Below, piece after piece: positions 43,391-60,806 of a DNA stretch of 64,000 nt. Made by a program: the position numbers and the translations under genes. Each line of letters begins with the position of its first letter. The first letter of the stretch is position 1. The notes beneath the pieces are model-generated. The model saw nothing but the letters and a program-made list of their open reading frames with translations. It did not search any database and had not been told where the DNA came from. The stretch lies in NCBI GenBank assembly GCA_019752115.1, contig JAIEMN010000012.1:1-64000 (forward strand), read 5' to 3'. The DNA is from Gemmatimonadaceae bacterium (lineage in GTDB: Bacteria; Gemmatimonadota; Gemmatimonadetes; Gemmatimonadales; Gemmatimonadaceae).

Positions 43391-43692
43391 GCCATGGGGG
43401 CCCGGCACACTTTGACCGCCAGGCACCCGGCACTTTCGTCCCAACGGGACGAAGGCGTAGCGGACCGGCGGTGTCGCCCGCGCGTCATCGCTGAATTGCT
43501 TGAAGTTCCATAAGCCTTTACAAGAAAAGGCTTTGCCTCATTGTAACGAACGTGATTTCAAGCAAGGAATCGTGAGGCAACCTCTGGCATACCGGTTGCA
43601 TTAGACCGTGCCCGTATCCTCGGGTTCGCCGAGGGGGACACTTCTGCCGATGTCGGCTTCGCCCGTGTCCCGACTCGATTCCTTGCTTCAGA
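43391..43692 (+). other. Hairpin-rich 302-base leader before the diguanylate cyclase
   Basis: No gene is seen. Five inverted repeats occur in order: TTCGTCCC-AAC-GGGACGAA at 43435-43453; AAGCCTTT/AAAGGCTT at 43512-43533; TTGCCTCA/TGAGGCAA at 43533-43580, enclosing 32 bases; CCTCGG-GTTCG-CCGAGG at 43618-43634; and GGGACAC/GTGTCCC at 43635-43671, with an inner GCCGA/TCGGC. The patch from 43500 to 43570 is unusually AT-rich for this window. It may hold an actP terminator (second hairpin) and a structured RNA leader. It does not match the c-di-GMP-I riboswitch consensus. Confidence 0.5.
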
Positions 43693-44982
43693 ATGCTCGA
43701 CCGCATTTCTCGACGACTGGCAATTTGGGCGTTGTTGGCCATCGCTCCGGCGGGTGCTGCCGCGGCCACGGTCAGCGGCATGACCGGAACCAGTCTCACG
43801 GATGCCGCGCCCCTGCTCTCGGCCGTGGCGTTGCTCGTGTCGATCCTCGGCTGGCGGCTGCTCCATCAGCAGTTGCAGGGGCAGCGCCGCGAAGATCACT
43901 CGCTCCGGGAACAGGTCCGCCGCCTGCACGAAGCGATGCATGCCAGTGCCGACGGACTCTTCGTGCTGCAGGCCATGCGCGACGAACACGGGGTCATCAC
44001 GGACTTCCGCATTACGGACGTGAACGGCATCGGCGCGTCGCTGCTGCGGCGGTCCGCGGACACGCTCACCGGACGGTCGCTGCGGGGCGATCTGGCGAGC
44101 CCCTTCGCCGAACAGCTGTTCGAGCGCTATGTGTGGGCGCTGTCCACGGGTTCCCCGATCGTCGAGGACGTGCGCGTACACCGGCAGCATCTCGCGGCAC
44201 GCTGGGTCCTGCACCAGGCAATGCCCATGAGTGACGGCCTCGCGGTGACGGTACGCGACATCTCCCAGCGCAAACGCGAAGAGCGGACGCTGCGCCGCGC
44301 GTCCCTCACCGATGATCTGACGGGGCTCTACAACCGCCGCGGGTTCATGGCGCTGGCCGATCAGCAGCTGCGCATGGCGCGGCGCAATGGTCGCGATTGC
44401 GTGGTGCTGTATGCGGACATGGATGGCTTCAAGCAGCTCAACGACGACCACGGGCACGCCGTGGGCGACAAGGCGCTGATTCTCGTGGGGCGCCTCCTGC
44501 GCGAAACCGTCCGTGACTGCGATGTGGTGGCCCGACTTGGCGGTGACGAGTTCACGATTCTCGCCTGCGACGCCGACGGCACCGGCGCGCGCATCATTCA
44601 GAAGCGCATCGAGGAGCGTCTCGCCGTTGCCAACAGCAGCGGGGAGCTCCCAGCGCCGCTGCAGCTCACGATTGGCTACACCCGCGTGCGCCCGAGTGAT
44701 CACTCGAGCGTGACCGAACTCCTCGCGCGCGCGGATCAGCTGTTGTACGCCCGCAAGCGGCGCCGACACCTCACGCGGTTGCATGGAACGCCAACCGTCA
44801 CGACCGAAACGCACGCGGCACGTCCGCGCGGCCCGCGTCGCACGCCGCGCGTGGCGCCGGTGGCTGTGCCGGCCGATGTGGCGGCCGTCGCGATCGCCGC
44901 TGCACGCAACCTGCCCGTTCGTACGCCGGTCGCCGATCCGATGCCGATGGTTCCGCCGCTCCGGCTACACGTCAGCTCGTAG
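43693..44982 (+). CDS. Membrane PAS-GGDEF diguanylate cyclase
   Basis: A 429-residue protein that probably makes cyclic di-GMP from two GTP. It has two N-terminal hydrophobic segments (about residues 8-25 and 38-55), a PAS-like domain (about 78-195, ending VTVRDISQRK) and the GGDEF domain. The active-site motif is GGDEF at 283-287. The inhibitory I-site RxxD is RDCD at 274-277, exactly five residues upstream, so product inhibition is likely. The C-terminal 65 residues are a low-complexity Ala/Pro/Val-rich tail. The leader is unusually structured. Confidence 0.93.
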   Translation: MLDRISRRLAIWALLAIAPAGAAAATVSGMTGTSLTDAAPLLSAVALLVSILGWRLLHQQLQGQRREDHSLREQVRRLHEAMHASADGLFVLQAMRDEHGVITDFRITDVNGIGASLLRRSADTLTGRSLRGDLASPFAEQLFERYVWALSTGSPIVEDVRVHRQHLAARWVLHQAMPMSDGLAVTVRDISQRKREERTLRRASLTDDLTGLYNRRGFMALADQQLRMARRNGRDCVVLYADMDGFKQLNDDHGHAVGDKALILVGRLLRETVRDCDVVARLGGDEFTILACDADGTGARIIQKRIEERLAVANSSGELPAPLQLTIGYTRVRPSDHSSVTELLARADQLLYARKRRRHLTRLHGTPTVTTETHAARPRGPRRTPRVAPVAVPADVAAVAIAAARNLPVRTPVADPMPMVPPLRLHVSS

Positions 44983-45008: not shown

Positions 45009-45044
45009 AAGAGCGCCGTCACCACTCTGGTGGCGGCGCTTCTT
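45009..45044. terminator. Bidirectional hairpin at convergent ends
   Basis: AAGAGCGCCG-CACCA pairs with TGGTG-CGGCGCTTCTT around a short CTC loop. It lies between the cyclase end and the kinase gene end (the kinase stop falls inside it). The AAGA/TCTT flanks give a weak T-tract on each strand. Confidence 0.45.
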
Positions 45045-46797
45045 CGTCGCTACTGGGTCCTTCCAGCAGGCGGCGCCACCACGGCCGCTGATCTTCCGCC
45101 CGCCGCATGGCCCGGACCACTTCCCGCCAGGCCGCGCGCATCTCCTGCGCGTCCTCGAAGCGATCGTCCACGCGCTGCGCGAGCCCGCGCGCCAACCACG
45201 AGCCCAGCTCCTCGGCAAACCCGAGCTCCTGCAGACGCTCCGGCAGCGTGTCGGAGAGCTGCTGGGCGAGAATCATCTCCGCCTTGCCATCTCCGAACGG
45301 CGGCTTGCCGGTGAGCACAAAGAACACAATGCTCGCGATGGCATAGCAGTCGGTCGCCGGCCCCTGCGCTTCTCCCAACAGCTGCTCCGGTGCGGCGAAG
45401 CTCGGCGTCCCACTGGTACCCGCCTTCTCATCGCCCAACGCGTAGGCGATGCCGAAGTCGCCAATGCGCCACCGCCGGAAGCGATCGATGAGGATGTTCT
45501 CCGGCTTGAGATCCCGGTGAATGATCCCGCTCGTGTGCGCGGCGTGCAGCGCCTCGAGCACTTCATCGACCTGCGGCGCGATCTCCTCGAAGGGGCGCGG
45601 TCCTGAGCGCGACACCAACTGCGCCACCGACCCCCCTTCGGCGAGCTCCATCGTGTACCAGACGATGCCGCCACGGCTGTCACTGTCGTAGATCGGCACG
45701 ATGGCTGCGTGCGCAAGCTGTGCCGCCAGACGCGCTTCGCGCCGGAAGCGCGCCACCGCGACGTCGTCCTTCGCGATGTGCGGATGCAGCACCTTGATGG
45801 CCACCTCGCGCGAGAGCGAGAGGTCACGGGCGCGCCACACACTGCCGAACATCCCGCTCCCCAACGGGGCGAGAATCTCGTAGTCGTCGGACGTGGCCCA
45901 CCGCAGACGCCCTTCCGCCGACGCCAATGTGCTCGGCAGCTCGTCGCCTTCGGGGGCGATGAACATCGGCCGGACCGACACATTCCGATCAAGTTCGCGC
46001 AGCATCGCCGCGATGCTCGGATAGCGCGCGTCGGGATCGGGGTCGAGCGCACGCTGAATGACGGTCCCGAGCGCCTGCGGGCACTCGGGGCGCAACAAGG
46101 ACAGCGGCGGCACGTGATCGTGCGGCGCGGTTTCACCGGTCAGCATGACGAAGAGCATCGCCGCCAGCTGCCACTGATCGGACGCCGTCGTGGGCTTCCA
46201 CTCGCCGGGCGCCCACTCGGGGGCCCACGGGGTAAACGCCTCGTCGGGGATCAGCCCGGCCGGTCGATGTTCGCGCGGCAACACCCACTCCCAGCCGAGC
46301 AGCCAGAGGCGCCCGCCCGGCGTCAGCCAGACTGTACTGGGCGACACCGCGCCGTGCGCGCTCCCCGTGTCATGCAGATAGGCCAAGGTGGCCCCCGCTT
46401 CGCGCAGCACCTGGAGCGCGAACGGAATGCCATCCGGCCCCAGGCGCATCACGCGCGACCAGACGGTTTCGCCGCTGATCCAGCGCCGCAGATAGCCCGG
46501 TCCGCGCCGACTCTCCTGATACGACGCCCAGTAGTGATACGTGGTGGGAATCGAGGGATGGTTGCGATGGGCGAGCGCGCGCGCCTCATGCTGCAGCCAC
46601 TCACCGTGCGCCTCGTTCTGCACGCTCACGAGCGACAGCGAGCGTCCCAGGGCGTCCACCACTTCCTGATAGTGGCGATGCTCCCGCTGCACGGCCTCGT
46701 CGCCCCACGACCACCCAGGCGGCAGCGACCACGACGCCAAGTGGGGCGGCGGCGAGGCGGTAGGCTCGTGGTCGGTGGAGGAGCTGATCAGGGGCAT
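45019..46797 (-). CDS. Tandem protein kinase: N-terminal pseudokinase plus active Ser/Thr kinase
   Basis: A 592-residue cytoplasmic protein with two kinase-like domains and no membrane segment. The C-terminal domain (about 305-560) is complete: Gly loop GSGMFGSV, VAIK Lys335, HRDLKPEN with Asp429, DFG at 447-449 and APE at 469-471. The N-terminal domain (about 25-275) keeps the fold (APE-like WAPEW, ASDQWQLAAMLFVMLTG). However, its HRD is replaced by HGA at 148-150 and its DFG by LGW at 167-169, so it is predicted to be inactive. The start at 46797 is set by the end of the histidine kinase gene, eight bases upstream. Confidence 0.88.
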   Translation of the reverse strand: MPLISSSTDHEPTASPPPHLASWSLPPGWSWGDEAVQREHRHYQEVVDALGRSLSLVSVQNEAHGEWLQHEARALAHRNHPSIPTTYHYWASYQESRRGPGYLRRWISGETVWSRVMRLGPDGIPFALQVLREAGATLAYLHDTGSAHGAVSPSTVWLTPGGRLWLLGWEWVLPREHRPAGLIPDEAFTPWAPEWAPGEWKPTTASDQWQLAAMLFVMLTGETAPHDHVPPLSLLRPECPQALGTVIQRALDPDPDARYPSIAAMLRELDRNVSVRPMFIAPEGDELPSTLASAEGRLRWATSDDYEILAPLGSGMFGSVWRARDLSLSREVAIKVLHPHIAKDDVAVARFRREARLAAQLAHAAIVPIYDSDSRGGIVWYTMELAEGGSVAQLVSRSGPRPFEEIAPQVDEVLEALHAAHTSGIIHRDLKPENILIDRFRRWRIGDFGIAYALGDEKAGTSGTPSFAAPEQLLGEAQGPATDCYAIASIVFFVLTGKPPFGDGKAEMILAQQLSDTLPERLQELGFAEELGSWLARGLAQRVDDRFEDAQEMRAAWREVVRAMRRAEDQRPWWRRLLEGPSSDEEAPPPEW

Positions 46798-46805
46798 CCT
46801 CCAGT

Positions 46806-49800
46806 TTAACGCCGCAGCGCGCCCGATGCTTCCCGCACCGACGGCAGGATCACCTCGACACGGGTGCCCACACCGATGCGACTCGTCACACTGATCGTAC
46901 CGCCCCACCCTTCGATCAAACGGCGGCTGATCGCGAGTCCGAGTCCGCTCCCGCTCGTCCGGGTCGAAAAATGCGGCTCGAAGATCCGGGGAAGGACATC
47001 CTCGGCAATCCCGCAGCCGTCGTCGCTGACCACGATGCGGACCTGCCCATCGGCGGCGGTCACCTCCACCCGCACCGTACGGGCGCCGGCCAACCGCGCA
47101 TTCTCGAGCAGGTTGATCAGCACCTCGCGCAACTCGTCGCGTGACGCCACCGCGATGCACGCAGCATCGGGGGTCACGGCCTGCCATTGCACCGCCGCAT
47201 CGCTGGGATCGGCATCGCCCAGCCGCTCGAGCTGCACGACGTCCTGCACCACCGCGGTGACGTCCACGGCCACCGGCGCCAGGCGCTCGGCCGGCGCCGT
47301 GCCGTAGCGACTGAAGGCCCGCGCGATTTCGTCCAGGTGATCGATCTCCTGCAGCACGCGACCCACATTCGTCTCGAGAATCTCCGCGAAGTCGCCCCGA
47401 CCATCGCGATAGGCCCGACGCAAATGCTGCACGCCGAGGCGAATGGGCGTGAGCGGATTCTTGATTTCGTGGGCCACCTGCCGCGCCATTTCGCCCCAGG
47501 CGAGCACGCGCTGCGCCGATGCAAGTTTCGTCACATCGTCGAGCGTGAGCACCGCACCACTCGGCAGTCGGGTGAGTCGCGCGCGCAGTTCGCGACCGTC
47601 GAGCCGGAGTTCGAACGCCTCTTCGTCGGCCGTCCCCGCCAGGAAGGCGCGCGCCTGCCGCACGAGTTCTGCATGCGCCGCCGGCCAGCTCGCCAGCGTG
47701 GTCTCGCGCACCGGGAAGCCCAACAACGCATCCGCGCGCGGATTGGCGAGACTCACCGATTCGCCCTGCAGGAGCCCCACCACACCCGAGGCCACATGCT
47801 GCAGCACCGCCGAGGTGCGTCGCTGCGCCGCCTCGAGCGCCTGCCGACTTGCGGCGAGATCATCGGCCATGCGGCTGAAGGCGCGGTACACCGGCGCGAA
47901 CTCGGACGCCGGTGCGGTGCCAAGCTGAGGCGACTCGCCACCCGCGGCGAGGGCGAGTGCCGCCTCACGCAGCGCGCCCACGGGCTGGGCCAGTGAGCGC
48001 GCGGCGAGCCCGCTCGACCAGATCGCTGCCAGTGCGCCCAACATCGTGGCAAAGACGACGAGCACGCCCAGATCCTCGCGTCGCGCGTCGAGCGCGAATT
48101 CGCCGCCGCGGGCCGGTGTCACCAGCACCGCTTCGTTGGCGGCGGCGGTGATGGGGACGGCGACGCTGGGCAGCGGCCCGCGACCGAAGCGGCGATAGCC
48201 GATCAGCGCGTCGGACTCGCCGACCCGCAGGCGCCGCGTGGTGAACAGGTCGTCGCTGGTGAAGTCGGTCTCGGTCAGCGTCACCGGCAACAGGCGGCCC
48301 AGTGGTGCCAGCGCATCGAGCACCGAGTCGCTGGCGGTCACGAGCAGGCCTTGCTTGTACAGAAAGAGCGGTGCCCCCGTACTCGAACGCTGCGTGCCAA
48401 GCGGGCGAGTCTCCTGCTCGGCGGCCGCGACGCGCAACGTTTCGCGCACCAGCAGTTCGCGCGCTGCCCGATCGTCGTCCTGCAGACGCACCCACGCCCA
48501 CAAGGCGAACAGGCCAGCGGGGACGATGAAGAACGTGAGGAGCGCGCCCGACAGTCGAACACGATAGCTGCGCGACCAGCGCGCCCGCCGCACACGAACC
48601 AGCCGTCCGAGGGCGCCATCGGCGAGTGCGGTGGCGGTCCACACCACGAGCACCACGAGCACATCGAGCATCACCAGCAGGGCGCCGCGCGGGAGCAACG
48701 CGTCGAGCCCGCGCAGATCCACCTCGACATGCACGCGTCGCATTTCGCCGGTGTCGATGGTGCTGGGCCCCACGACGCCATCGCCGTGCAACGCGTCGGC
48801 GCGACGGCGCCAGGTGATGCGCCCGGTGAGCACATCGCCGGCTAGCGGCGTACTCAACTCGAGCTTGTAGGGGGCGACGGTGCCGCGCGTCCCGGTCACA
48901 CCGGTGAACGCCGCAAAGGCATCCGCAGGCAGGAGCGCAGTGCGTGGCGGCACCGCCACCGTCAGCACACTGCTGTCGGTGAGTGGCACCCCCGCGAGGA
49001 GCAGGCGCGTCGGGCCATCGGTGACCGTGCGGATCTCGATCGCGCGACTGAGTCGCGCGAGCATGGCCACCGTGGCCTGCGCGCCCGCCGGATCACTCAC
49101 CGGCGCCAACTCGAGCACTGTGGAAGCGGTATCCGTGTTGGCCGGCAACCACCGCGCGAGGCGCGCGGGATATCCCGCGGCCGCGAGTTCGCTCCCGGCA
49201 TAGCGGCGCAGCAGGACATCGGCGCCGGTGCCACGCAGTGGTTCGTCACGCACCGACATCGCGAACCGTTCGAGCAGCCGCAGCGCGTTCTCGTCCACCG
49301 CCGACAGACGTGCCAGATCATGCTCCACGAGCGCGACACGCGCCCGCACGGTGGCGCCCCACGTCAACGTGACCGCGCCACTCCCCGCCACGACGGCCGC
49401 AGCCACCACCTGCGCGAGGCCACGTCGGGTGAGCGCGAAGGCCGCGATGGCACAGATCCACGGAATCGGATACCACCCGGGCCACGACCCCGAGGCTTCG
49501 ATGAGGACCGGGGCCATCATCGCTGCGATCACCGCCAGCATGGGCGCGAGCACCGCCGGCAATCCGCGCCGAGTCCCGAGCGCCACCTGCCCCGCCGCGG
49601 CGCCGGCCAGCAGCACCACCGCACCGACGAGGGCGAGCGCCAGCTGCCACGCCGACCAGAGCCCCACGCTCGGACCCGCGGCCGGCAACCCGATGCCGCG
49701 CGCCAGATCGCGCAGCAGGAAGGGCCCGCCACCGGCCGCAATCACCAGCAGCAGAATGGCCACGCGACGCGAGGGGCGCTGGCGCGTCGCCCGCAGCACG

Positions 49801-50930
49801 AACAGCAGCACCGCGAGCACCAGCGACGCCGACAGCAGCAGCGCGGCCGCCGTGGACGTAAGCGGCCCGCCCATCGGCGCAAAGAAGTTCGCCGGATCGA
49901 ACAGCGACGACAGATTCGACAGTCCGGGCAACGGCGACATCGCCACGGTGGCGAGCGCGAGGCTCGTACTGGCAAAGCGCTCGAGCGTTCCCGATGGGCG
50001 GCGCCACGCGATCGCCAGCATGGCGACGAGCGCGACGAACAGCGCCACCGCGGTCCGTGAGCGCGCCCGCTGCTCGGTGGCGAGGCGTGTCTCGCCTTCG
50101 GTGTATGTGGTCGCCCGGACCCGCGCGAGGCGCGTGGGCCCGATCTGCACCACCATCACGGTCGAACCGGGTTCCACCCGCGTGCTGTCAGGTGATTCGA
50201 TGATCGTGTGCGCGGCGTCGATGCGCCCCGGCAGCGTGCGCAGCAGCGGGCGCGTGAAGCGATCCGCCGGTGGCGCCGACGTCAGCAAGGCGGCGGCGAC
50301 AATCTCGATCTGCCCATCGGGCGAGAGCGCCCGCGCGATCACCGAGGTGTGAAACACCCCGTCGATCAGGGCGACGCCGGAGCCTCCGGTGGCCGACACC
50401 GGCGTGTGCAGCTGTCCGGCACGGGCCACCAGCCGTCCACCGCGAAACACCAAGAGCGCCGACTCCACATCGGTGGGCAGCGGCGCGGCGATCGCCGGCG
50501 TGCGCCCCTCCATGACGTCCGCGACGAAGCTCGCCTCCGTAGCGCGCTGGCGGACCGCCTCCCGGAGCGCTTCCGCCACCTCCCGCACGCTGGCCGAGAC
50601 CTGCTCGGCCCGCGTTTCGCGCTCGGTGGCCGACCAGCGTGGCCAGTCGCGCCGCATGGAGGAGAGCGTGGCCGTATCGGCGGCACCGACCAGCACCCCG
50701 ATCGTGAGGGCGACCACAGAGACCATGGCCAGCCCCCGGGGCCGCCGCACCCCCGGCAACAGCGCCGCCGCCGCGAGCGTGGCCCCGCCGCAGACCACGA
50801 GCCGGGGCCACCCCGGCGCCTGCTGCCACCACGCCAGGGCCAGGAGCGCCGACGCCGCCGCCAAGACCCAGAGCGCCGGCCAGCGATCGGCCGTCGTGGA
50901 GGAGGATCCGGGAGGGGTGGGCGAAGCCAT
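46806..50930 (-). CDS. Very large membrane sensor histidine kinase (NtrY-like)
   Basis: A 1,374-residue sensor kinase, far longer than usual. The N-terminal 550 residues have many membrane helices interrupted by an outside domain. A second long extracytoplasmic region (about 560-790) is followed by another membrane helix, an outside loop and a final helix. Then come HAMP, a PAS domain (LLQGESVSLANPRADALLGF), HisKA (VAHEIKNPLTPIRLGVQHLRR, read in part, with the phospho-accepting His) and HATPase (SDDGCGIAEDVLPRIF, SGLGLAISRRLIEGWGG). There is no receiver domain and no adjacent response regulator. The signal is unknown. It is co-transcribed with the tandem kinase gene. Confidence 0.9.
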   Translation of the reverse strand: MASPTPPGSSSTTADRWPALWVLAAASALLALAWWQQAPGWPRLVVCGGATLAAAALLPGVRRPRGLAMVSVVALTIGVLVGAADTATLSSMRRDWPRWSATERETRAEQVSASVREVAEALREAVRQRATEASFVADVMEGRTPAIAAPLPTDVESALLVFRGGRLVARAGQLHTPVSATGGSGVALIDGVFHTSVIARALSPDGQIEIVAAALLTSAPPADRFTRPLLRTLPGRIDAAHTIIESPDSTRVEPGSTVMVVQIGPTRLARVRATTYTEGETRLATEQRARSRTAVALFVALVAMLAIAWRRPSGTLERFASTSLALATVAMSPLPGLSNLSSLFDPANFFAPMGGPLTSTAAALLLSASLVLAVLLFVLRATRQRPSRRVAILLLVIAAGGGPFLLRDLARGIGLPAAGPSVGLWSAWQLALALVGAVVLLAGAAAGQVALGTRRGLPAVLAPMLAVIAAMMAPVLIEASGSWPGWYPIPWICAIAAFALTRRGLAQVVAAAVVAGSGAVTLTWGATVRARVALVEHDLARLSAVDENALRLLERFAMSVRDEPLRGTGADVLLRRYAGSELAAAGYPARLARWLPANTDTASTVLELAPVSDPAGAQATVAMLARLSRAIEIRTVTDGPTRLLLAGVPLTDSSVLTVAVPPRTALLPADAFAAFTGVTGTRGTVAPYKLELSTPLAGDVLTGRITWRRRADALHGDGVVGPSTIDTGEMRRVHVEVDLRGLDALLPRGALLVMLDVLVVLVVWTATALADGALGRLVRVRRARWSRSYRVRLSGALLTFFIVPAGLFALWAWVRLQDDDRAARELLVRETLRVAAAEQETRPLGTQRSSTGAPLFLYKQGLLVTASDSVLDALAPLGRLLPVTLTETDFTSDDLFTTRRLRVGESDALIGYRRFGRGPLPSVAVPITAAANEAVLVTPARGGEFALDARREDLGVLVVFATMLGALAAIWSSGLAARSLAQPVGALREAALALAAGGESPQLGTAPASEFAPVYRAFSRMADDLAASRQALEAAQRRTSAVLQHVASGVVGLLQGESVSLANPRADALLGFPVRETTLASWPAAHAELVRQARAFLAGTADEEAFELRLDGRELRARLTRLPSGAVLTLDDVTKLASAQRVLAWGEMARQVAHEIKNPLTPIRLGVQHLRRAYRDGRGDFAEILETNVGRVLQEIDHLDEIARAFSRYGTAPAERLAPVAVDVTAVVQDVVQLERLGDADPSDAAVQWQAVTPDAACIAVASRDELREVLINLLENARLAGARTVRVEVTAADGQVRIVVSDDGCGIAEDVLPRIFEPHFSTRTSGSGLGLAISRRLIEGWGGTISVTSRIGVGTRVEVILPSVREASGALRR

Positions 50931-50935
50931 GGCCC

Positions 50936-50941
50936 ACAATA
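50936..50941 (-). promoter_or_regulatory. TANNNT -10-like box of the histidine kinase operon
   Basis: On the minus strand TATTGT ends five bases before the ATG at 50930. No ribosome-binding site is visible. Confidence 0.35.
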
Positions 50942-50962
50942 CCCCGAAGCCGGGCGGGAGGC

Positions 50963-50980
50963 GACGGGTCCTTACCCGTC
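50963..50980. promoter_or_regulatory. Palindrome GACGGGT-CCTT-ACCCGTC at a divergent start
   Basis: A perfect 7-bp inverted repeat with a 4-base centre in the 67-base gap between the histidine kinase and the secreted-protein gene. The GGGT...ACCC core resembles the GGGTCGTACCC sites at 26726 and 41443, with one extra central base. Confidence 0.4.
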
Positions 50981-50985
50981 CCGGT

Positions 50986-50991
50986 TATCTT
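50986..50991 (+). promoter_or_regulatory. TANNNT -10-like box of the secreted-protein gene
   Basis: TATCTT ends six bases before the ATG at 50998. GCAGGG lies between, so a weak ribosome site is an alternative reading. Confidence 0.35.
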
Positions 50992-50997
50992 GCAGGG

Positions 50998-51780
50998 ATG
51001 TCGCCCGCCCTTCGCTTTTGCGTGCCTGCGTACGCGGCGCTCCGCCGATGGCCTGCCGCCCTCCGCGCGCGGGCCACGTGGGCCGCCACCTGGCTGGCGC
51101 TCGTCGCCGTGCCGGGCGCCGCCCAGTCGCCCGCCGCCAAGGCGCCGGTCCGTTTGGACGAGGGCAGCTTCACGATCACCCTCAACGGCCAGCGCGCCGG
51201 ACGCGAACAGTTTTCGATTCAGCAGGTCACGGCCGCGGACGGCGCGACCCTCGAGGTCCGTGCGGAATCGGCCGTCAGCGACCGGCGGAGCGCGATGCGC
51301 CTCGACGCTGACAGCGCGGGCACGCCGGTGCGGTACTCCGTGGAAGAGCGACGGGGCGCCGAGCTCACGCTGCGCCTCGGTGGCCAGCGCGTGCGCGGGC
51401 GCTTTGCAACGTTGGCGCGGAGCCTCACCGGTGAAGCCGCGCGCGAGTACATGCTGCGCCCGGGCGCGGTCGTCGTTGAAGAGGACGGCATCGTGCAGCA
51501 TGCCCTGCTGGTGCGCGGCGCCGCGGCAACCACGACGACCGGCGTGACCCTCCCCAGCCTCACCCCGATCGCCAATGCGCAGGGCGTGGTGCGGATCGTG
51601 CCCGAAGCCGATGGCGACATCGTCGCCATTGCCGGGGTGCGCATCCCCGCCCGGCGGTGGCGCTGCGTCACCAACGATGGTGAGGTCCGGTTGGTATGGA
51701 CCGATGTGGAGGGGCATCTGCTCCGCCTCAGCATTCCCGCGCGCAACCTCGATGCGCTGCGTGATGATGTGCCCCGTTGA
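50998..51780 (+). CDS. Hypothetical secreted protein
   Basis: A 260-residue exported protein that I cannot name. It has a signal peptide ending in GAAQS (WAATWLALVAVPGAAQ) and a beta-rich mature domain (FTITLNGQRAGREQFSIQQV, VRYSVEERRGAELTLRLGG, WRCVTNDGEVRLVWTD, each a strand pair). The shape recalls DUF6134/DUF3108-like periplasmic domains, but the match is impressionistic. It lies 87 bases upstream of the TolC gene on the same strand and could be co-transcribed. It is divergent from the histidine kinase gene with a shared palindrome. Confidence 0.68.
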   Translation: MSPALRFCVPAYAALRRWPAALRARATWAATWLALVAVPGAAQSPAAKAPVRLDEGSFTITLNGQRAGREQFSIQQVTAADGATLEVRAESAVSDRRSAMRLDADSAGTPVRYSVEERRGAELTLRLGGQRVRGRFATLARSLTGEAAREYMLRPGAVVVEEDGIVQHALLVRGAAATTTTGVTLPSLTPIANAQGVVRIVPEADGDIVAIAGVRIPARRWRCVTNDGEVRLVWTDVEGHLLRLSIPARNLDALRDDVPR

Positions 51781-51867: not shown

Positions 51868-53367
51868 ATGAGACTTTCCGCGACTGCTCTCGGATTCGCG
51901 CTCGCGCTCGCCACGGTGACCGGGGGCCTGCGCCCCACCCAGGCGGTGGCGCAGGCCGCACCCGCCGCGGGCAACGTGCTGACGCTTGCCGACGCCATTA
52001 CGCTGGCCCGGCGCAACAACCCGGGGCTTCAGACCTCACTCAATGCCCGTCGCACGGCGGCCGCCAACGTGCGCGCCGCGAATGGCCAGCTCATTCCCAC
52101 CGTCAGCACGGGGTTCGGCGCCGGCTATCGTGAAGGCCGTCAGCAGTTCTTCGCCGGTCAGGGCTTCGGGTCCACGAACGACCAGCTCTCCACCGACGCC
52201 AACGCCAGCGTGTCGCTGAGCCTCACGCCGGGCTTCCTGCAGGATCTCGCGGCCGTGAAGGCCAGCCGCGACGCCACCGAAGCCGACATCACGGTGGCCG
52301 AGCAGAACCTGCGCAATACGGTGACCACGCAGTATCTCACCGCGCTGCAGGCGCAGGCGCGCGCCTCGCTGCAGGACACGCTCCTCGCGACCACCACCGC
52401 GCAGCTCCAGCTGGCCCGCGCCCGCCTGCAGGTGGGCTCCGGCACGCAGCTCGATGTGCAGCGCGCCGAAGTGGCCGATGGTCAGCAGCGCGTGGCGTCA
52501 CTGAACGCCAAGAATCAGGCACAGATCGAAATCGTGCGGCTCTTCCAGCAGATCGGCATTGCGCCGGTGCTCGACATCAAGCTCGACGCGAATCTGCCCG
52601 CCACGCCCACGGTGGATCTCTCGCAGGTGCTCGACCAGGCCAAGAAGTCCAACCCGCAGCTGGCCGCGCTGTCGGCGCGCGAGCAGGCCGCGAGCAAGTC
52701 CCTCTCCTCGGCCAAGCGCGCGTACCTGCCGTCGATGTCGCTCAGCGCCAGCCTGTCGGCCTTTGCCAATCGCTACACGAACACCAATCAGCTGATCACG
52801 AGTGGGCAGGCCTCGCTCGCGGCGCAGAAGGCGTCATGCATTCGCGGCGAAGAGGTGCGCGCGGCGCTCAACCTGGCCAACAACCTCGCGGCGTGCAACG
52901 CGATCGCCTGGACCGCGGCGAACGAGCAGTCCATCAAGGACTCGCAGGCCAAGTATCCGTTCGGCATGACGCGCAACCCGTACAGCCTCAACGCCAGCTT
53001 CTCGCTCCCGATCTTCAACGGGTTCCGTCGCGAACAGCAGATCGAAGCGGCGAGCGTGCAGCGCAAGAACGTGCAGAACGACCTCCGCACGCAGGAACTG
53101 CGCGTCACCGCCGATGTCACGGCGGCGTACCTCTCCCTCAATACCGCGCAGCAGACGGTGGTCCTCCAGGAGCAGAACGTGCGCACCGCGCGCACGGCGC
53201 TGCAGCTGGCGCAGGAGCGCTACCGCGTGGGCGCGATCAGCATCGTCGATCTCGTGCAGGCGCGTGGTGACTATGAACGCGCCGAGACCGACCGTATCAC
53301 CGCCGTGTACGACGTCCAGCGCGCCTTTGCCGCGCTCGAAAACGCCGTCGGGCGTCCCCTCCGCTAA
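51868..53367 (+). CDS. TolC family outer-membrane channel
   Basis: A 499-residue outer-membrane efflux protein with a signal peptide (ending near AVAQA) and the two OEP halves. The first repeat includes LTLADAITLARRNNPGLQTSLN; the second includes YSLNASFSLPIFNGFRREQQIE (each read in part) and QERYRVGAISIVDLVQA. It should form the trimeric exit duct for the MacA-MacB-like pump encoded directly downstream. The adaptor follows after 12 bases. The interior insert with four Cys (CIRGEE, NLAACNAI) may form disulfides outside. Confidence 0.93.
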   Translation: MRLSATALGFALALATVTGGLRPTQAVAQAAPAAGNVLTLADAITLARRNNPGLQTSLNARRTAAANVRAANGQLIPTVSTGFGAGYREGRQQFFAGQGFGSTNDQLSTDANASVSLSLTPGFLQDLAAVKASRDATEADITVAEQNLRNTVTTQYLTALQAQARASLQDTLLATTTAQLQLARARLQVGSGTQLDVQRAEVADGQQRVASLNAKNQAQIEIVRLFQQIGIAPVLDIKLDANLPATPTVDLSQVLDQAKKSNPQLAALSAREQAASKSLSSAKRAYLPSMSLSASLSAFANRYTNTNQLITSGQASLAAQKASCIRGEEVRAALNLANNLAACNAIAWTAANEQSIKDSQAKYPFGMTRNPYSLNASFSLPIFNGFRREQQIEAASVQRKNVQNDLRTQELRVTADVTAAYLSLNTAQQTVVLQEQNVRTARTALQLAQERYRVGAISIVDLVQARGDYERAETDRITAVYDVQRAFAALENAVGRPLR

Positions 53368-53379
53368 CCGAGCACCATC

Positions 53380-54663
53380 ATGAAGACTTCCGTGAAGTGG
53401 GGCATTGGCATCGTCGCCGTCGCCGGACTCGGCGCCCTCGGCGTCGTGGCCGCCAAGAAGCAGGGCACGAAGCCCGTGGAGGTGCGCGTGGAGGCCGTGG
53501 AAGCCCGCGATCTCGTCTCCTCCGTGCAGGCCAGCGGGCAGATTCAGCCGCGCATCAAGGTCAACGTGTCGTCGGACCTGACCGGCAAGATCGTGCGTCT
53601 CGCAGTGCGCGAAGGCGACATGGTCAAGAAGGGGCAGTTCCTGCTCCAGATCGACCCCGAGGCCGCGACCGCGGCCATGCAGCGGGCCGAAGCGCAGCTC
53701 GCGTCGGCCCGCGCACAGGCCGCTCAGGCCAAGGCGAACCTCATCCAGGCCCAGCGCAACTACGAGCGGCAGATGCAACTCAAGCAGACGCAGCCCGGCA
53801 TGGTCAGTGAGGAGCAGCTCGAGCAGCTCCGCACGCAGACGGAGGTCAACAAGGCGCTTGCCGAAGCGGCGAACTACGCCGTGGAGCAGTCGGTGGCCTC
53901 GGTGCGCGATGCGCGTCAGAACCTCGGCCGCACCACCATCACGGCGCCGATGAGCGGCAAGGTCACGCGGCTGAATGTCGAAGAGGGTGAAACGGCGATC
54001 ATGGGCACCCTGAACAAGGATGCCGCCACGCTGCTCACCATCTCCGACATGAGCATCCTCGAGACGAAGGTGAAGGTCGACGAGACCGACGTGGCTCGCA
54101 TCAGCGTGGGCGACTCGGCCGTCATCCAGATCGACGCCTTTCCCGATACGACGTTCCTCGGCAAGGTCGTCGAGATCTCGAACAGCTCCGTTGCCAAGGC
54201 GGCCGCCACCAACACCGGTGACCAGGCGATCGACTACGAAGTGCGCGTTCAGCTGCTCAACCCGCCGGTGGATACCCGCCCGGACTTCTCGGCCACGGCC
54301 AAGATCATCACCGCGCAGCGCAAGAACGTGCTGAGCATCCCGATCATTGCCTTGTCGGTGCGCGAGAACGAGTCGCTCCCGAACGGGGATTCGGCGGTCA
54401 CGGTGGGCAAGCAGCCGGCCAAGGAAGTCGGCAAGCGCGATGTGGAAGGCGTCTTCATCGTGGGGACGGACAACAAGGTGACCTTCCGCCCCGTAAAGGT
54501 GGGGATCACCGGCGAGCGCCACTTCGAGGTACTTTCCGGTCTCAAGGCGGGCGAGCAGATCGTGGCGGGCACGTACCAGGCCATCCGCGAACTCAAGGAC
54601 GGGGCCCTCATCAAGCCCAGCAAGCCCGAGGAGAAGAAGGCGGCCACGGGAGCGAAGAAGTGA
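53380..54663 (+). CDS. Periplasmic adaptor of HlyD/MacA type
   Basis: A 427-residue membrane-fusion protein that joins inner-membrane permeases to the TolC channel. It has one N-terminal membrane anchor ([18 protein letters not shown]), the lipoyl halves ([34 protein letters not shown]), a coiled-coil hairpin rich in Ala/Gln/Glu (about 105-200), and a beta-barrel region. It is longer than MacA in the C-terminal part. The ATPase gene overlaps its stop by four bases (GTGA). Confidence 0.92.
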
Positions 54664-55466
54664 GCACCACCGACGAGATCGGCCTGAGCACCACCGGCGA
54701 GCGCATGGCCGTCACGGCCACGCACGGCGCCACCCCGTCTTCGGATTGGGTGATCGTGACCCGCCAGCTCAAGCGGCAGTACGACATGGGCGGTGAAATC
54801 GTCCGCGCCCTGCGGGGGGTCGATCTCGCCATCCGTCGGAACGAGTACGTCGCCATCATGGGCCCGTCGGGCTCGGGCAAGTCCACGCTCATGAATCTCA
54901 TGGGCTGCCTCGATACACCGAACGAGGGCGAGTACTGGCTCAACGGCATGCTCGTCTCGGCCATGTCCGACGATCAGCTCGCCCGTGTTCGCAACAAGGA
55001 GATCGGGTTCGTCTTCCAGACGTTCAACCTCCTGCCCCGCGCCACGGCGCTCCAGAACGTCGAACTGCCGCTCGTGTACGCCGGGGTCTCGGCCGAAGAG
55101 CGCAAGGCACGGGCGATGGAAGCGCTCGAGCGCGTGCAGCTCGGCCAGCGCGTGCATCACCGCCCGAACGAACTCTCCGGCGGTCAGCGTCAGCGCGTGG
55201 CGATCGCCCGCGCCCTGGTGAACCGGCCGTCCATGCTCCTCGCGGACGAACCGACCGGTAACCTCGACTCGCAGACCTCGGAAGAAATCATGAAGGTCTT
55301 CGAGGAGCTCGCCACGCAGGGCCAGACGGTCGTGATGGTGACCCACGAGCCCGACATCGCCGCCCACGCCCGCCGCGTGGTGGTGCTGCGTGACGGCGTG
55401 ATCGCGAGTGACGAAAAGCGCGAGCAGTTCATCGAGCGTGTGGGTCTGACACACGCGGCGCACTAA
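54660..55466 (+). CDS. MacB/LolD-type ABC transporter ATPase
   Basis: A 268-residue ATP-binding subunit. It has Walker A ([18 protein letters not shown]), a Q-loop ([11 protein letters not shown]), the signature [15 protein letters not shown], Walker B ([12 protein letters not shown]) and the switch His (VMVTHEPD). It starts with a GTG at 54660 overlapping the adaptor stop. The family's ATPases are normally fused or paired with one FtsX-type permease. Here a single ATPase precedes six permease genes and ends just before a strong terminator. Confidence 0.95.
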
Positions 55467-55481
55467 GTTCTCGGCCGAAAA

Positions 55482-55586
55482 GCTCACACAGAGTACATGG
55501 GGACAGACGGGGTCACGGTGAACAGCCGTGACCCTTTTCTTTGCTCTCCCTGTGCGCACGTCAGTCCCCGTGTGCCCTGTGTGAGC
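55482..55586. repeat. Imperfect 23-bp inverted repeat enclosing a terminator
   Basis: The arm at 55482-55504 (starting GCTCACACAG) and the arm at 55564-55586 (ending CTGTGTGAGC) match as reverse complements at 20 of 23 positions. Two of the three mismatches still allow G-U pairing in RNA. The 105-base unit encloses the terminator at 55510-55543. No target-site duplication is obvious. It could be a dispersed palindromic element or a large regulatory RNA stem. Confidence 0.75.
55510..55543 (+). terminator. Strong intrinsic terminator after the ABC ATPase gene
   Basis: A perfect 9-bp stem GGGTCACGG/CCGTGACCC with a 7-base loop is followed by TTTTCTTT. It lies 43 bases after the ATPase stop and before the first permease gene. 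This is the clearest rho-independent terminator in the window. Confidence 0.85.
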
Positions 55587-55641
55587 AGTTCATGACATCT
55601 CAGTGGGTGAAACGATCGGCACGTGGGCGCGTAGGGTCGCC

Positions 55642-56889
55642 ATGCACTTTTTCGAAGCCGTCATCCTCGCCCTGCGCACCATCCGCACGCAGAAGCTCAA
55701 GAGCGCGTTCACGCTCCTGGGCGTCTGCATCGGGGTCATGTTTCTCATCTCGGTGGTGTCGATCGTCGAAGGGATGGGTCGCTACATGCAGGACGACCTC
55801 ATCGGCAAACTGATCGCCGTCAACACCTTCGAGCTGCGCAGCCGGCCGAACATCAACATCGGCGATATCGACGACGCCACGTGGGAGGAGTACCGCAAGC
55901 GCCCGCGCCTCGACATCACCGATGTCCCGCCCGTCACGCGCGTTCTCCCCGATGGCGTGCGCTGGTATCTGAGCAGCGAGGACAACGTGCGGGCCACCAC
56001 GCCCACCAGTGGCAAGCCGCGCTCGGTGCAGGTCTACGCGGTTGACGGCGACTATTTCGAGATCAAGAAGCTGGGCATTGCCCGTGGCCGGCCGCTCACG
56101 GCGCAGGAGCTGGCACGCGGCGAGAAGACGGTCGTGATCGGTCAGGATGCGGCGGAGCGGCTGTTTCCCGGCGTTGATCCGCTGAATCGCGAACTGAAGC
56201 TGGGCGGGGTGCCCTACCGCGTGGTCGGGATCGCCGAGTCGCAGGGCTCTGCCTTCGGGGTGTCGTTCGACAATTTCCTTGTCGCGCCCTGGCATGCGCC
56301 CGTTCGCCGGCTGCTGAACTCGCGGCCCAACATCGTGGACGCGGTCGCCATTCAATCGCCGAGCGACGCGGCCATGAAGGAAACGATGGAGATCGTGCGG
56401 GCGGCGATGCGCGCGCAGCACAAGCTGCGCCCGGCGCAGAAGGATGACTTCTCGCTGCAGACCGCCGATTCGGCGCTGGAGTTCTGGAACAAGATGAAGC
56501 AGTACCTCGTGCTGGCGGGGATCGCACTGCCGGCGATCGGCCTCGTCGTCGGGGCGATCGTCATCATGAACATCATGCTGGTGGCGGTGTCCGAACGCAC
56601 CCGTGAGATCGGGATCCGCAAGGCGCTGGGCGCCAAGCGGCGCGACATCCTGGCCCAGTTCCTGATCGAAGCGTCCACGCTGGGCACGGTGGGCTCCGCG
56701 GTCGGCGTGGGGCTCGGGATCGGCTTGGCGAAGCTGATTGCGGCGGTCTCCCCGTTGCCCGCCAGCGTCGCCCCATGGTCCATCCTGGTGGGTGTCACCC
56801 TCGGCGCTGGGGTCGGCATCATCTCCGGCGTGTATCCGGCGAGCCGCGCCGCGCGGCTCGATCCCATCACCGCCCTGCGGCAGGAGTAG
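55642..56889 (+). CDS. MacB/FtsX-type permease 1 (odd type)
   Basis: A 415-residue ABC permease with one N-terminal membrane helix (FTLLGVCIGVMFLISVVSIV), a periplasmic MacB_PCD domain and three C-terminal FtsX helices. These include LVVGAIVIMNIMLVAVSERT and the motif SERTREIGIRKALGAKRRDI. It ends in LDPITALRQE. The start at 55642 follows TAGGGT, either as a ribosome site or a -10 box; a GTG at 55603 is in frame. It forms the first of three odd/even permease pairs and follows the terminator at 55510-55543, so it needs its own promoter or readthrough. Confidence 0.9.
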   Translation: MHFFEAVILALRTIRTQKLKSAFTLLGVCIGVMFLISVVSIVEGMGRYMQDDLIGKLIAVNTFELRSRPNINIGDIDDATWEEYRKRPRLDITDVPPVTRVLPDGVRWYLSSEDNVRATTPTSGKPRSVQVYAVDGDYFEIKKLGIARGRPLTAQELARGEKTVVIGQDAAERLFPGVDPLNRELKLGGVPYRVVGIAESQGSAFGVSFDNFLVAPWHAPVRRLLNSRPNIVDAVAIQSPSDAAMKETMEIVRAAMRAQHKLRPAQKDDFSLQTADSALEFWNKMKQYLVLAGIALPAIGLVVGAIVIMNIMLVAVSERTREIGIRKALGAKRRDILAQFLIEASTLGTVGSAVGVGLGIGLAKLIAAVSPLPASVAPWSILVGVTLGAGVGIISGVYPASRAARLDPITALRQE

Positions 56890-56892
56890 CGC

Positions 56893-58158
56893 ATGTCGGC
56901 GTTCCGTACACGACTCTCGGCGGTCGCCGAAGGGGTGGTCATCGCGCTCGATGCCGTCCGCGCCAACAAGGTGCGCGCGGGGCTCACCATCCTCGGCATC
57001 GCCGTCGGCGTCTTCGTCGTGGTCGCGATATCCGCAGCGGTACACGGCATCAACGAGTCGGTGGCGAAGGACTTCGCGAGTACCGGCCCCACCACGTTTT
57101 TCGTCACGCGCTATCCTATCAGCTTCGAGAACTGCGACGGCAGCGATGGCACCTGCACGTGGTTGCGCAATCCACCGCTGCGGTCGCGTGAAATCGACAT
57201 GCTGCGGCAGTTGCAGAGCGTCGAGGCCGTGGGCGAGCGGTTGGACTGGGGGGCCAAGGTGAAGTTCCGCGATCGCGAGCTGTCGCAGGCTCCGGTCGAG
57301 GGATACTCCGCCGAGTGGACGTCGATCAGCGCGCCGGCGGTCTATCCCGGGCGGGCCTTCACGGCGGCCGAAGTCCGATCGGCGGCGCGCGTCACGGTGA
57401 TCTCCACGCTCATGAAGGAGCGCCTCTTTGGCGATGGCGATCCGATCGGCCGGCAGATTCTGCTCAACAACGTGCCGTTCGAAGTCATCGGCGTGTACAA
57501 GGACAACAGCAGCTTCCTGAGTGGCGGTGAGCGGCCCAAGGCGGTTGTGCCCATCACGGCGCTCACCCGCTATATCGGCGCGCGGGCCAGCAACATCGGC
57601 CTGGCAGTCAAACCGCGCGAGAGCCTCGAGCCGGCGGTTGCCCGCGACGAAGCCATCGACGAAGTCACCGCCATGCTGCGCGGGCTCCGCGGTCTGCGCC
57701 CGAACGAAGAGTCGAGCTTCGCAATCCTTACCCAGGACAAGTTGTTCGAGACGTACAACAAGATCTTCGGGATGTTCTTCCTGGTGATGATCGCGCTGTC
57801 CGGCGTGGGACTCATCGTCGGCGGCGTGGGCGTGGTGGCGATCATGATGATCTCGGTGACCGAGCGGACGCGCGAGATCGGCGTGCGCAAGGCGCTGGGC
57901 GCGACCAAGGCCACGATTCTCTGGCAGTTCCTCGTGGAGGCAGCCACGCTCACCGGCATCGGTGGCGCGATCGGGCTCTTCGTGGGCTGGCTGGGTAGCG
58001 TGGCGATCCGCTCGTTCACCCCCATCGAAGCGAGCATCCCCCCCATGGCAGTCGTCGTGGCCCTCGGTGCCAGCGCAGTCACGGGTGTGCTCTTTGGCAT
58101 GCTCCCCGCCAGCCGGGCCGCGCGCCTCGATCCGGTCGAAGCGCTCCGGTACGAGTAA
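56893..58158 (+). CDS. MacB/FtsX-type permease 2 (even type)
   Basis: A 421-residue ABC permease three bases after permease 1. It has an N-terminal helix in NKVRAGLTILGIAVGVFVVV, a periplasmic domain, and FtsX helices with MISVTERTREIGVRKALGAT. It ends in LDPVEALRYE, as canonical MacB does. The periplasmic domain has a short Cys-bounded loop CDGSDGTC, shared with permease 4 (CDGTDEKC) but missing from permease 6. That loop suggests a disulfide outside the membrane. Confidence 0.92.
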   Translation: MSAFRTRLSAVAEGVVIALDAVRANKVRAGLTILGIAVGVFVVVAISAAVHGINESVAKDFASTGPTTFFVTRYPISFENCDGSDGTCTWLRNPPLRSREIDMLRQLQSVEAVGERLDWGAKVKFRDRELSQAPVEGYSAEWTSISAPAVYPGRAFTAAEVRSAARVTVISTLMKERLFGDGDPIGRQILLNNVPFEVIGVYKDNSSFLSGGERPKAVVPITALTRYIGARASNIGLAVKPRESLEPAVARDEAIDEVTAMLRGLRGLRPNEESSFAILTQDKLFETYNKIFGMFFLVMIALSGVGLIVGGVGVVAIMMISVTERTREIGVRKALGATKATILWQFLVEAATLTGIGGAIGLFVGWLGSVAIRSFTPIEASIPPMAVVVALGASAVTGVLFGMLPASRAARLDPVEALRYE

Positions 58159-58211
58159 CCGCGGTTTCCCCCGGCGGGAACAGGCATGGGTGGGGTGGTT
58201 ATTGTTGAAGG

Positions 58212-59453
58212 GTGAAAACCCGTGACGCGGTCGTCCTCGCCCTTTCCCAGCTTCGCGTCCAGAAGCTGAAGAGTTTCTTCACCCTGCTCGGTGTCATGAT
58301 CGGGGTGATGTTCCTCATTGCCGTCGTCTCGATCGTCGAGGGGATGGGCAAGTACGTCGAGGAAGATTTCGCCTCGCGCCTGATCGGCACGAACAGCTTC
58401 ACGCTGCAGCGCTTCAGCAACGTGGGCCCGGGCGGCAATCGCGGCTTTGACGCGCGCGCGGCGGCGCGCCGCCCCCTGCTCCGCATGACCGATGTGGACG
58501 CCGTGAAGGCGGTCCTGCCGCCGACCATGCGGGCGAGCATCAGCAGCACCACGTTCAAGTACGCCTCCGCGCCGGGCGCGCGTCCGCGACAGGTGCAGGC
58601 CGTGGCGGCCGATGTGAACTACTTCGTCATCAAGAACTACAAGATCACGAAGGGCCGCCCCTTTACGGACCAGGAAGTGCGGGCCAGCTCGCCCGTCATC
58701 GTGATCGGCACCGAAGTCGCCGACCACTTCTTTCCCGGCCTCGATCCGGAAGGACGGCAGCTCCGCATCGCCGGCGTGCCGTTCACCGTGATCGGCATCA
58801 TCGAGAAGCAGGGGTCGGTGTTCGGCTTTTCGCTCGACCGGCTGGCGATCGCGCCCTACACCAGCCCCATGGGCCGCATCATTCGCCCGGCCAAGGATGT
58901 CGGAAGCCTCGTCGTGCAGGTCCCGCGACAGGAAGATCTGCAGGATGGCATGGAGCTCGCCCGCGGCGCGCTGCGCGCGGTGCGCGGGCTGCGCGCGGGG
59001 GAACCCGACAACTTCGGGCTCGTCACGCAGGATGCCGCCTTCGGCTTCATCAAGCAGCTGAAGGGGCGCCTCGTCGTCTTCGGCACCGCGCTGCCGGCGG
59101 TAAGTCTGGTGGTCGGCGCAATGGTGATCATGAACATCATGCTGGTCGCGGTGGCCGAACGCACGCGAGAGATCGGGGTGCGGAAGGCGCTGGGTGCGAA
59201 GCGCGCCGATATCCTGTCGCAGTTTCTTGTGGAAGCGGCCACGCTCAGCACCCTGGGCGCGGCCATCGGCATCGCCCTGGGCATCGGGCTCGCCAAACTG
59301 ATCTCGGCGTTCACCCCGTTGCCCGCGGCCGTCGCGCCGTGGTCGATCGCCGCCGCCATCGTCACGGGGGCGGGCGTCGGCATTGGCGCCGGGCTCTATC
59401 CCGCCAGTCGCGCGTCGAAGCTCGACCCCATCGCCGCCCTGCGCTCGGAGTAA
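58212..59453 (+). CDS. MacB/FtsX-type permease 3 (odd type)
   Basis: A 413-residue odd-type permease. The helix FFTLLGVMIGVMFLIAVVSI is closely similar to permease 1, and the C-terminus AERTREIGVRKALGAKRADI ends in LDPIAALRSE. It starts with a GTG at 58212 preceded by GAAGG. The 53-base gap after permease 2 has a small hairpin (GTTTCCC/GGGAAC). It opens the second pair. Confidence 0.9.
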   Translation: MKTRDAVVLALSQLRVQKLKSFFTLLGVMIGVMFLIAVVSIVEGMGKYVEEDFASRLIGTNSFTLQRFSNVGPGGNRGFDARAAARRPLLRMTDVDAVKAVLPPTMRASISSTTFKYASAPGARPRQVQAVAADVNYFVIKNYKITKGRPFTDQEVRASSPVIVIGTEVADHFFPGLDPEGRQLRIAGVPFTVIGIIEKQGSVFGFSLDRLAIAPYTSPMGRIIRPAKDVGSLVVQVPRQEDLQDGMELARGALRAVRGLRAGEPDNFGLVTQDAAFGFIKQLKGRLVVFGTALPAVSLVVGAMVIMNIMLVAVAERTREIGVRKALGAKRADILSQFLVEAATLSTLGAAIGIALGIGLAKLISAFTPLPAAVAPWSIAAAIVTGAGVGIGAGLYPASRASKLDPIAALRSE

Positions 59454-59456
59454 CCC

Positions 59457-60716
59457 ATGTTCGCTCGCCTCTTTCTCGTCTTCGAAGGCGTGGGCATGGC
59501 ACTCGAGGCCATCCGCTCCAACAAGGTTCGCGCGGGTCTCACCATTGCCGGCGTGGCGATCGGCGTGTTCGTGGTCGTGGCGATGGGCTCGGTCGTGTCC
59601 GGCATTCGCGCGTCGTTCCAGCAGGATCTCGATCAGATCGGTGCGACGAGCTTCTTCGTGCAGCGGCGCGACAACGGCATCAGTGGCTGCGACGGTACCG
59701 ACGAGAAGTGCCCCGATCGCTCCAATCCACCCATCAGCTTTGACGAGTGGGCCATGATCCGCCGCCTCCCGGGCGTCGGTACGGTGATCGGCTCGCTCGG
59801 CGGGCAGGCCAACTTCGCCTACAAGAACAGCCGCGTCGACAATGTGGGCTACGACGCCTACAGCGTGGACTGGCCCGAAGTCAACGGTGCCGACATTGCC
59901 CCGGGGCGCAACTTCACGCGCAACGAAGACGCCGCCGGGTCGCCTGTCGTCCTGATCAACGACACGCTCAAGACGCAGCTCTTCGGCATGTCCGACGCCG
60001 TGGGCAAGGCGATCACGCTCAACGGCCAGCAGTTCACGGTGATCGGCATCTACTCACCGCGCGCCGGCTTCCTGCTGTCACTGCAGGGCAAGGGCCCCGA
60101 TACCCCGCGGGCCATCGTGCCCATTCAGGCCGCTGTGCGCCAGCTGGGGGCCTTCAAGAGCGGGCTGCTGCTCACCGTACGCCCCAGTGCGTCGGCGCGG
60201 CAGGATGAAGTGATGGACGAGGTCACCGCCGCCATGCGCGCGAGTCGCGGGCTCAAACCCGGTGATCGCCAGACCTTCTATCTCGTCTCGCAGGATCGCC
60301 TGCTCGATACCTTCAACCAGCTCTTTGGCGCGATCTTCGCCGTCGGCCTCGCCCTGTCGGCGGTGGCGCTGCTGGTGGGTGGCGTGGGCGTCGTGGCGAT
60401 CATGATGATCTCGGTCACCGAGCGGACGCGTGAGATCGGCGTCCGAAAGGCGCTCGGCGCCACGGCGGCCACGATCCGCTGGCAGTTCCTGGTGGAGGCG
60501 GCGACGCTCACCAGCATCGGGGCGCTCCTCGGGTTGGGGCTCGGCGCCCTGCTCGCCTGGGGGATTCGTGCCAACAGCAGCATTCCGGCCTTCCTCCCCA
60601 TGTCCATCGTGATCACGGCCCTCGCGGCCAGCGCCATCACGGGCGTGGCGTTCGGCATGCTGCCGGCGGTGAAGGCCTCCCGCCTCGATCCGGTCGAGGC
60701 GCTCCGCTACGAATAA
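59457..60716 (+). CDS. MacB/FtsX-type permease 4 (even type)
   Basis: A 419-residue even-type permease three bases after permease 3. The N-terminal SNKVRAGLTIAGVAIGVFVVV mirrors permease 2, the FtsX motif is TERTREIGVRKALGATAATI, and the tail is LDPVEALRYE. The extracytoplasmic domain has the Cys loop CDGTDEKC. Substrate unknown, as for all six. Confidence 0.92.
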   Translation: MFARLFLVFEGVGMALEAIRSNKVRAGLTIAGVAIGVFVVVAMGSVVSGIRASFQQDLDQIGATSFFVQRRDNGISGCDGTDEKCPDRSNPPISFDEWAMIRRLPGVGTVIGSLGGQANFAYKNSRVDNVGYDAYSVDWPEVNGADIAPGRNFTRNEDAAGSPVVLINDTLKTQLFGMSDAVGKAITLNGQQFTVIGIYSPRAGFLLSLQGKGPDTPRAIVPIQAAVRQLGAFKSGLLLTVRPSASARQDEVMDEVTAAMRASRGLKPGDRQTFYLVSQDRLLDTFNQLFGAIFAVGLALSAVALLVGGVGVVAIMMISVTERTREIGVRKALGATAATIRWQFLVEAATLTSIGALLGLGLGALLAWGIRANSSIPAFLPMSIVITALAASAITGVAFGMLPAVKASRLDPVEALRYE

Positions 60717-60801: not shown

Positions 60802-60806
60802 GCAGT

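Follow-up and report, generated by a model that had tools for sequence, protein, structure and literature searches.

The window analysed here, 64,000 nucleotides of a Gemmatimonadaceae bacterium (GenBank assembly GCA_019752115.1, contig JAIEMN010000012.1, positions 1 to 64,000), carries on its reverse strand the gene of a soluble 592-residue protein in which a degenerate kinase fold precedes a predicted active Ser/Thr kinase (the tandem kinase, 45019-46797). By open reading frame coordinates this gene starts eight nucleotides past the stop of a gene for a 1,374-residue membrane histidine kinase (the sensor, 46806-50930, reverse strand), as the original prediction had stated. We consider it probable that two systems share this operon: an NtrYX-like envelope sensor whose response regulator is encoded at a distance, and a tandem kinase that was recruited late and is regulated in cis. 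The original prediction had instead taken the sensor to lack a regulator and hence to signal into the Ser/Thr kinase.

The two domains of the tandem kinase

A clear ribosome-binding site (GGAGG) precedes the open reading frame of the tandem kinase, which encodes no transmembrane stretch. Only its C-terminal half (approximately residues 297-565; 45022-45909, reverse strand) is seen by Pfam (Pkinase, E 6.8e-44), and this domain aligns with PknB of M. tuberculosis over 257 residues (Z 32.7, 35% identity). The HRD (427-429) and DFG (447-449) motifs and the beta-3 Lys (K335) are intact, and residues G313, K335, E354, H427-R428-D429, K431, N434, D447 and G449 are invariant in all 33 aligned orthologues. 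Judged by this full set of catalytic residues, the C-terminal domain is predicted to be an active PknB-like Ser/Thr kinase. The whole protein differs from PknB-type kinases in lacking both a transmembrane stretch and a PASTA match, the NCBIfam model of Stk1/PknB PASTA kinases (NF033483) reaching 240 bits against a cut-off of 450, and in having an N-terminal pseudokinase fused in front.

The N-terminal half (approximately residues 1-290; 45928-46797, reverse strand) stays below significance when searched alone against Pfam (Pkinase, E 0.11). A profile built from 24 orthologues, in contrast, matched PknB/PknA over the whole domain with E ~1e-35, and comparison of the N- and C-domain profiles by hhalign gave a probability of 100% (E 1.8e-42). 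In the AlphaFold2 model (33 sequences; mean predicted local distance difference test score, pLDDT, 82.7; predicted TM-score, pTM, 0.55) the N-domain has the bilobal secondary structure of a kinase and both halves adopt the kinase arrangement. Foldseek and VIA-align searches with the whole model were dropped for the N-domain because the C-domain dominates them, and the N-domain was therefore judged by its profile and by the secondary structure of the model. The proposal that the protein combines a kinase fold lacking HRD and DFG with an intact kinase was borne out by the profile search, hhalign, AlphaFold2 and the residue alignment; the outcome that would have refuted it, an N-terminal half unlike a kinase, did not occur.

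In the N-domain of the window protein, HGA (148-150) takes the place of HRD and LGW (167-169) that of DFG, and the beta-3 Lys is missing. Across the 33 orthologues the beta-3 Lys and the catalytic-loop Asn are never found and the HRD-type Asp is retained in two only, whereas the alphaC-Glu, the APE-Glu, the alphaF-Asp and the subdomain-XI Arg are kept in every one. The DFG-type Asp is retained in 17 of the 33, all belonging to other families, and is lost in the window's own family. Sister families carry xRR in place of HRD and DLR in place of DFG, and the domain was therefore very probably dead already in the ancestor of the order. In sequence and in predicted structure, the N-domain is thus a pseudokinase, homologous to kinases and deprived of catalytic residues, which appears to have been kept for its fold.

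Orthologues with both domains were found at full strength in 108 of 116 genomes of the order (genomes at least 90% complete), some of them split up by contig breaks. The 84 genomes from outside the order had none; matches there were of single-kinase strength. This two-domain layout is ancient, belongs to the order as a whole and predates its present location. JAK (JH2-JH1) and GCN2 are eukaryotic pseudokinase-kinase tandems. Like these proteins and the plant tandem kinase-pseudokinases (PMC6170490), the window protein combines an active kinase with a degenerate kinase fold that has preserved its structural residues; unlike them it is bacterial, soluble and free of further domains, a likeness of architecture only. 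Among bacteria, the pseudokinase families ActPs1-3, GLW, CP1, DYD and DLHK have been described (PMC12599244); with these, the N-domain in the window's own family shares the loss of all three catalytic motifs (HGA, LGW, no beta-3 Lys). In the GLW family that tripeptide replaces HRD and a membrane segment lies C-terminal to the domain (PMC12599244); in contrast, the window protein has HGA at the HRD position, its relatives have xRR or HGx, and there is no membrane segment. A text search of the same review returned no tandem or Gemmatimonadota case, and our literature search on Ser/Thr and His kinases of Gemmatimonadota returned nothing specific. Few experimental studies of bacterial pseudokinases exist (PMC12599244), and a pseudokinase fused to an active kinase, near-universal in an order, with structure kept and catalytic residues lost, would provide a clean natural test of how such domains exert control.

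The giant sensor and its probable partner, an NtrX-like regulator

The sensor has about ten hydrophobic or transmembrane stretches and an H-box of the NtrC type (HEIKNPL). Pfam recognised HAMP (slightly below cut-off), HisKA and HATPase_c, and a PAS domain was recognised by structure (approximately residues 1046-1132, Z 11.9). A model of residues 1-1175 (pLDDT 82.3, pTM 0.74) contains three alpha/beta modules bordered by transmembrane helices; a membrane block of several helices follows the first module. We infer from this model that the three may serve as extracytoplasmic sensor modules; the PAS domain was the only clear Foldseek match, and the modules are described from the model alone, with no claim to a fold family. 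The PAS domain is missing in several relatives (L062-L066, L068 and L032; alignment gap at approximately 1037-1131), an observation that marks it as an optional module. Against NCBIfam, AtoS came first among the best 25 of 93 matches, and no NtrY model appeared among the Pfam matches to E 1. The HAMP-PAS-HisKA-HATPase_c layout with an NtrC-type H-box is that of NtrY.

The original prediction had noted that no response regulator lies nearby. None is found among the genes tested between approximately 37.5 and 55 kb, but the statement is misleading: an orphan regulator is encoded at 24448-25821, on the same strand, 21 kb downstream of the sensor and within the window. It has the NtrX layout of a receiver, a sigma54 AAA+ domain and a Fis-type helix-turn-helix. 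NtrX is also its best NCBIfam match (NF051870), and because the score of 462.5 bits lies below the cut-off of 600, we call it NtrX-like and not NtrX. Of 21 loci, 20 contain no further histidine kinase within approximately 5.5 kb of this gene.

In the 200 genomes compared, the sensor and the regulator are inherited together: both were found in 163, the sensor only in 4, the regulator only in 2 and neither in 31. The corresponding Fisher test (p 1e-29) ignores shared ancestry, and joint absences nested within positive groups, namely genus g24 and genome G161, therefore weigh more (codes such as G031 denote genomes, and f1 or g24 family or genus labels, as assigned by the search tool). These joint losses are not explained by a single deletion, since g24 retains both the tandem kinase between the two genes and the export operon beside them. 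Furthermore, 82 pairs share a contig, and in 79 of these the same strand carries the regulator downstream of the sensor at no more than 60 kb (range 3.9-59.5 kb, median 13 kb); one of the remaining pairs is separated by 73 kb and two are far apart, and 36 further pairs on different contigs are uninformative for linkage. The best matches of the two proteins, AtoS for the sensor and NtrX for the regulator, both come from systems with NtrC-type regulators, which supports the pairing. On co-inheritance and synteny the partnership is strongly supported. On the same pattern of co-inheritance and linkage we reject a truly partnerless sensor, and the claim that the sensor, for want of a regulator, passes its signal to the Ser/Thr kinase is undermined.

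The sensor gene is also tied to an exporter. In all 20 loci of the order that were first read, it stands head-to-head with genes for an outer-membrane factor, an HlyD adaptor, an ABC ATPase and MacB-type permeases, and most of these genes were beside it in 7 of 8 loci of the wider class as well; one exception to this arrangement is a single-contig genome of the sister family (G216, L103). Taken together, the co-occurrence, the same-strand linkage and the head-to-head exporter point to an NtrYX-like system, with this protein as its sensor, as the most likely arrangement. The system resembles NtrY/NtrX in its membrane-bound histidine kinase, which contains HAMP, PAS and a catalytic core of the NtrC type, and in its receiver-sigma54-Fis regulator. 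It differs in a far larger sensor region (approximately 970 residues before HAMP), in the separation of the two genes, mostly 4-60 kb apart and not in one operon, in the tie to a MacAB-TolC-type operon, and in a regulator that scores short of NtrX.

In such a system the sensor would detect an envelope signal through its three putative extracytoplasmic modules, and phosphate would pass from the histidine of HEIKNPL to the NtrX-like sigma54 activator. An envelope- or export-linked signal seems likely, because the MacAB-TolC-type operon is the usual head-to-head neighbour. It has been reported that NtrYX controls cell envelope genes, including a cyclase/phosphodiesterase gene, in Rhodobacter sphaeroides (PMC7240162), and that sigma54 is generally linked to the cell exterior (PMC3162934); by analogy a similar role here fits these reports, which do not prove it. 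Through this survey a partner is assigned, across a large part of a class that has received little study, both to the giant sensor, an apparent orphan, and to the orphan NtrX-like regulator, and the sensor is connected with a MacAB-TolC-type exporter.

The association between kinase and sensor genes

Sensor and tandem kinase genes follow one another in tandem in 47 of the 57 Gemmatimonadaceae genomes in which both were located. Of the other ten, seven encode them on opposite strands, 1.4-2.1 kb apart (an aldehyde dehydrogenase-like gene fills the gap in the loci read); in one genome they are in tandem with 6.4 kb between them, and in two they lie on different contigs. The conservation of neighbours that the original prediction had proposed as a check is therefore found within the family and fails outside it: linkage was seen in none of 18 sister-family genomes, of which 16 have the genes on different contigs (some perhaps through assembly) and a single-contig one has them 1.9 Mb apart. 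Outside the family the neighbours of the kinase are unrelated, namely queuosine biosynthesis-like and GGDEF genes. In addition, each gene persists without the other. The kinase is present without sensor or regulator in genus g24 and in G161 (G069, G070, G210 and G161), and in g24 it still adjoins the export operon (L113); the sensor is present without the kinase in genus g7 and in G085 (G035, G125, G142 and G085), and also in the class outside the order. From the family-only tandem order and this independent persistence we conclude that the association is family-level, real and not obligatory. The best reading is that the tandem kinase came to adjoin the sensor gene only within Gemmatimonadaceae, recruited into the operon late.

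These distributions bear on the idea that a single pathway runs through both proteins, the pseudokinase docking on, or obeying, the histidine kinase and thereby linking His to Ser/Thr phosphorylation. The tight tandem across many genera of the family, with seven more pairs within approximately 2 kb, speaks for it, and the shared operon is the basis on which docking may be proposed. We nevertheless regard a single pathway as quite unlikely, given the absence of linkage in the sister family, the survival of the kinase after loss of sensor and regulator, the genomes with a sensor and no kinase, and the existence of a regulator co-inherited with the sensor. Its stronger form, in which the pseudokinase would dock on or sense the giant histidine kinase and a soluble Ser/Thr kinase would be built physically into the NtrYX-like envelope pathway of Gemmatimonadaceae with the phosphorylations coupled, is slightly more doubtful still. 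Direct His-to-Ser/Thr cross-talk is possible but unsupported. Hstk-type hybrids of cyanobacteria unite Ser/Thr and histidine kinases in one polypeptide; both kinase types are associated here too, but as two open reading frames eight nucleotides apart that are linked in one family only. The kinase might instead tune the NtrYX-like system without touching the histidine kinase, with the NtrX-like regulator or the export machinery as its substrate. Ser/Thr kinases are known to act on response regulators in other bacteria, and both the place of the kinase in the sensor's operon and its persistence beside the exporter in g24 are consistent with such a role. That outside the family it adjoins unrelated genes counts against this, and we judge indirect tuning unlikely. 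A role in a cyclic diguanylate (c-di-GMP) circuit was also considered, as the kinase has a diguanylate cyclase neighbour in both families: a convergent PAS-GGDEF gene in the genus of the window and, in five genomes of the sister family, a GGDEF gene immediately ahead of the kinase gene and read in the same direction. We think this very unlikely, since GGDEF genes are common, the two kinds differ beyond the GGDEF domain, and the gene found in the genus is served by a conserved sigma54 promoter of its own and so is not co-transcribed with the kinase.

We favour two systems in one operon. Regulation in cis would be the most likely mechanism for the tandem kinase: the pseudokinase may bind a ligand, a partner or the live domain and thereby control how active the live domain is, much as JH1 is governed by JH2 in JAKs, and co-transcription in Gemmatimonadaceae probably matches the amount of tandem kinase to that of the sensor. 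Several points weigh against this reading. Control by the pseudokinase is plausible by analogy with JAK, and the pTM of the AlphaFold2 model leaves the mutual orientation of the two kinase domains undefined. The regulator was never immediately beside the sensor in the genomes measured (nearest 3.9 kb), and other intervening genes, such as a ComM-like one, likewise stay in the neighbourhood, which makes part of the linkage regional synteny. Finally, no convincing sigma54 promoter was seen between the sensor and the export operon in 22 loci. For this last reason direct control of the export operon is not obvious, and the exporter may instead supply or report the signal.

Export genes and diguanylate cyclases around the operon

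The export operon (51868-62051, forward strand) is of the MacAB-TolC type, with one ATPase gene and five MacB-type permease genes in a row. It begins with a TolC-type outer membrane factor (51868-53367; Pfam OEP, E 1.9e-52) that is kept beside the sensor, followed by a MacA/HlyD-type adaptor conserved in position (53380-54663) and a putative MacB/LolD-type ABC ATPase (54660-55466), assigned from position, sequence and BLAST families. The permease genes (55603-62051) start at 55603, 56893, 58212, 59457 and 60807; the first encodes MacB_PCD and FtsX domains and the others fall in the same BLAST family. Between the sensor and this operon lies a gene for a secreted protein (50935-51780, forward strand; an open reading frame with a provisional start), and relatives in the same place match DUF6134. 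In many relatives this interval is taken up by two genes, one of the creatininase family and one for a secreted DUF6134-like protein (L067:15839-16600, L105:14393-15133 and equivalents).

On the other side, a PAS-GGDEF diguanylate cyclase (43693-44982, forward strand) is convergent with the tandem kinase in the genus. A sigma54 (-24/-12) promoter box, TGGCATACCGGTTGCA, lies upstream of it in the window (43585-43600, forward strand). Such a box precedes the start of the gene by approximately 103-115 bp in 23 genomes of the genus, and the 24th also has a perfect box, its PAS-GGDEF start being less certain. The NtrX motif GCA-N9-TGC, an alphaproteobacterial consensus, matched once upstream of the gene in the 24 genomes, and we therefore do not assign the diguanylate cyclase to the NtrX-like regulator. 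A dyad, CGGCA-N5-TGCCG, occurs with zero mismatches in 11 of the 24 upstream regions (L071-L094), mostly approximately 137 or 197 bp before the sigma54 box, and resembles an activator binding site; the copy in the window has two mismatches. Genome-wide, the extended dyad was not in excess (37 against 41 in the reversed control). In the sister family, the GGDEF genes upstream of the tandem kinase (L036, L037, L039, L041 and L044) encode proteins of which some have a GAF-like N-terminal half, and in one of the five pairs the GGDEF and kinase open reading frames abut.

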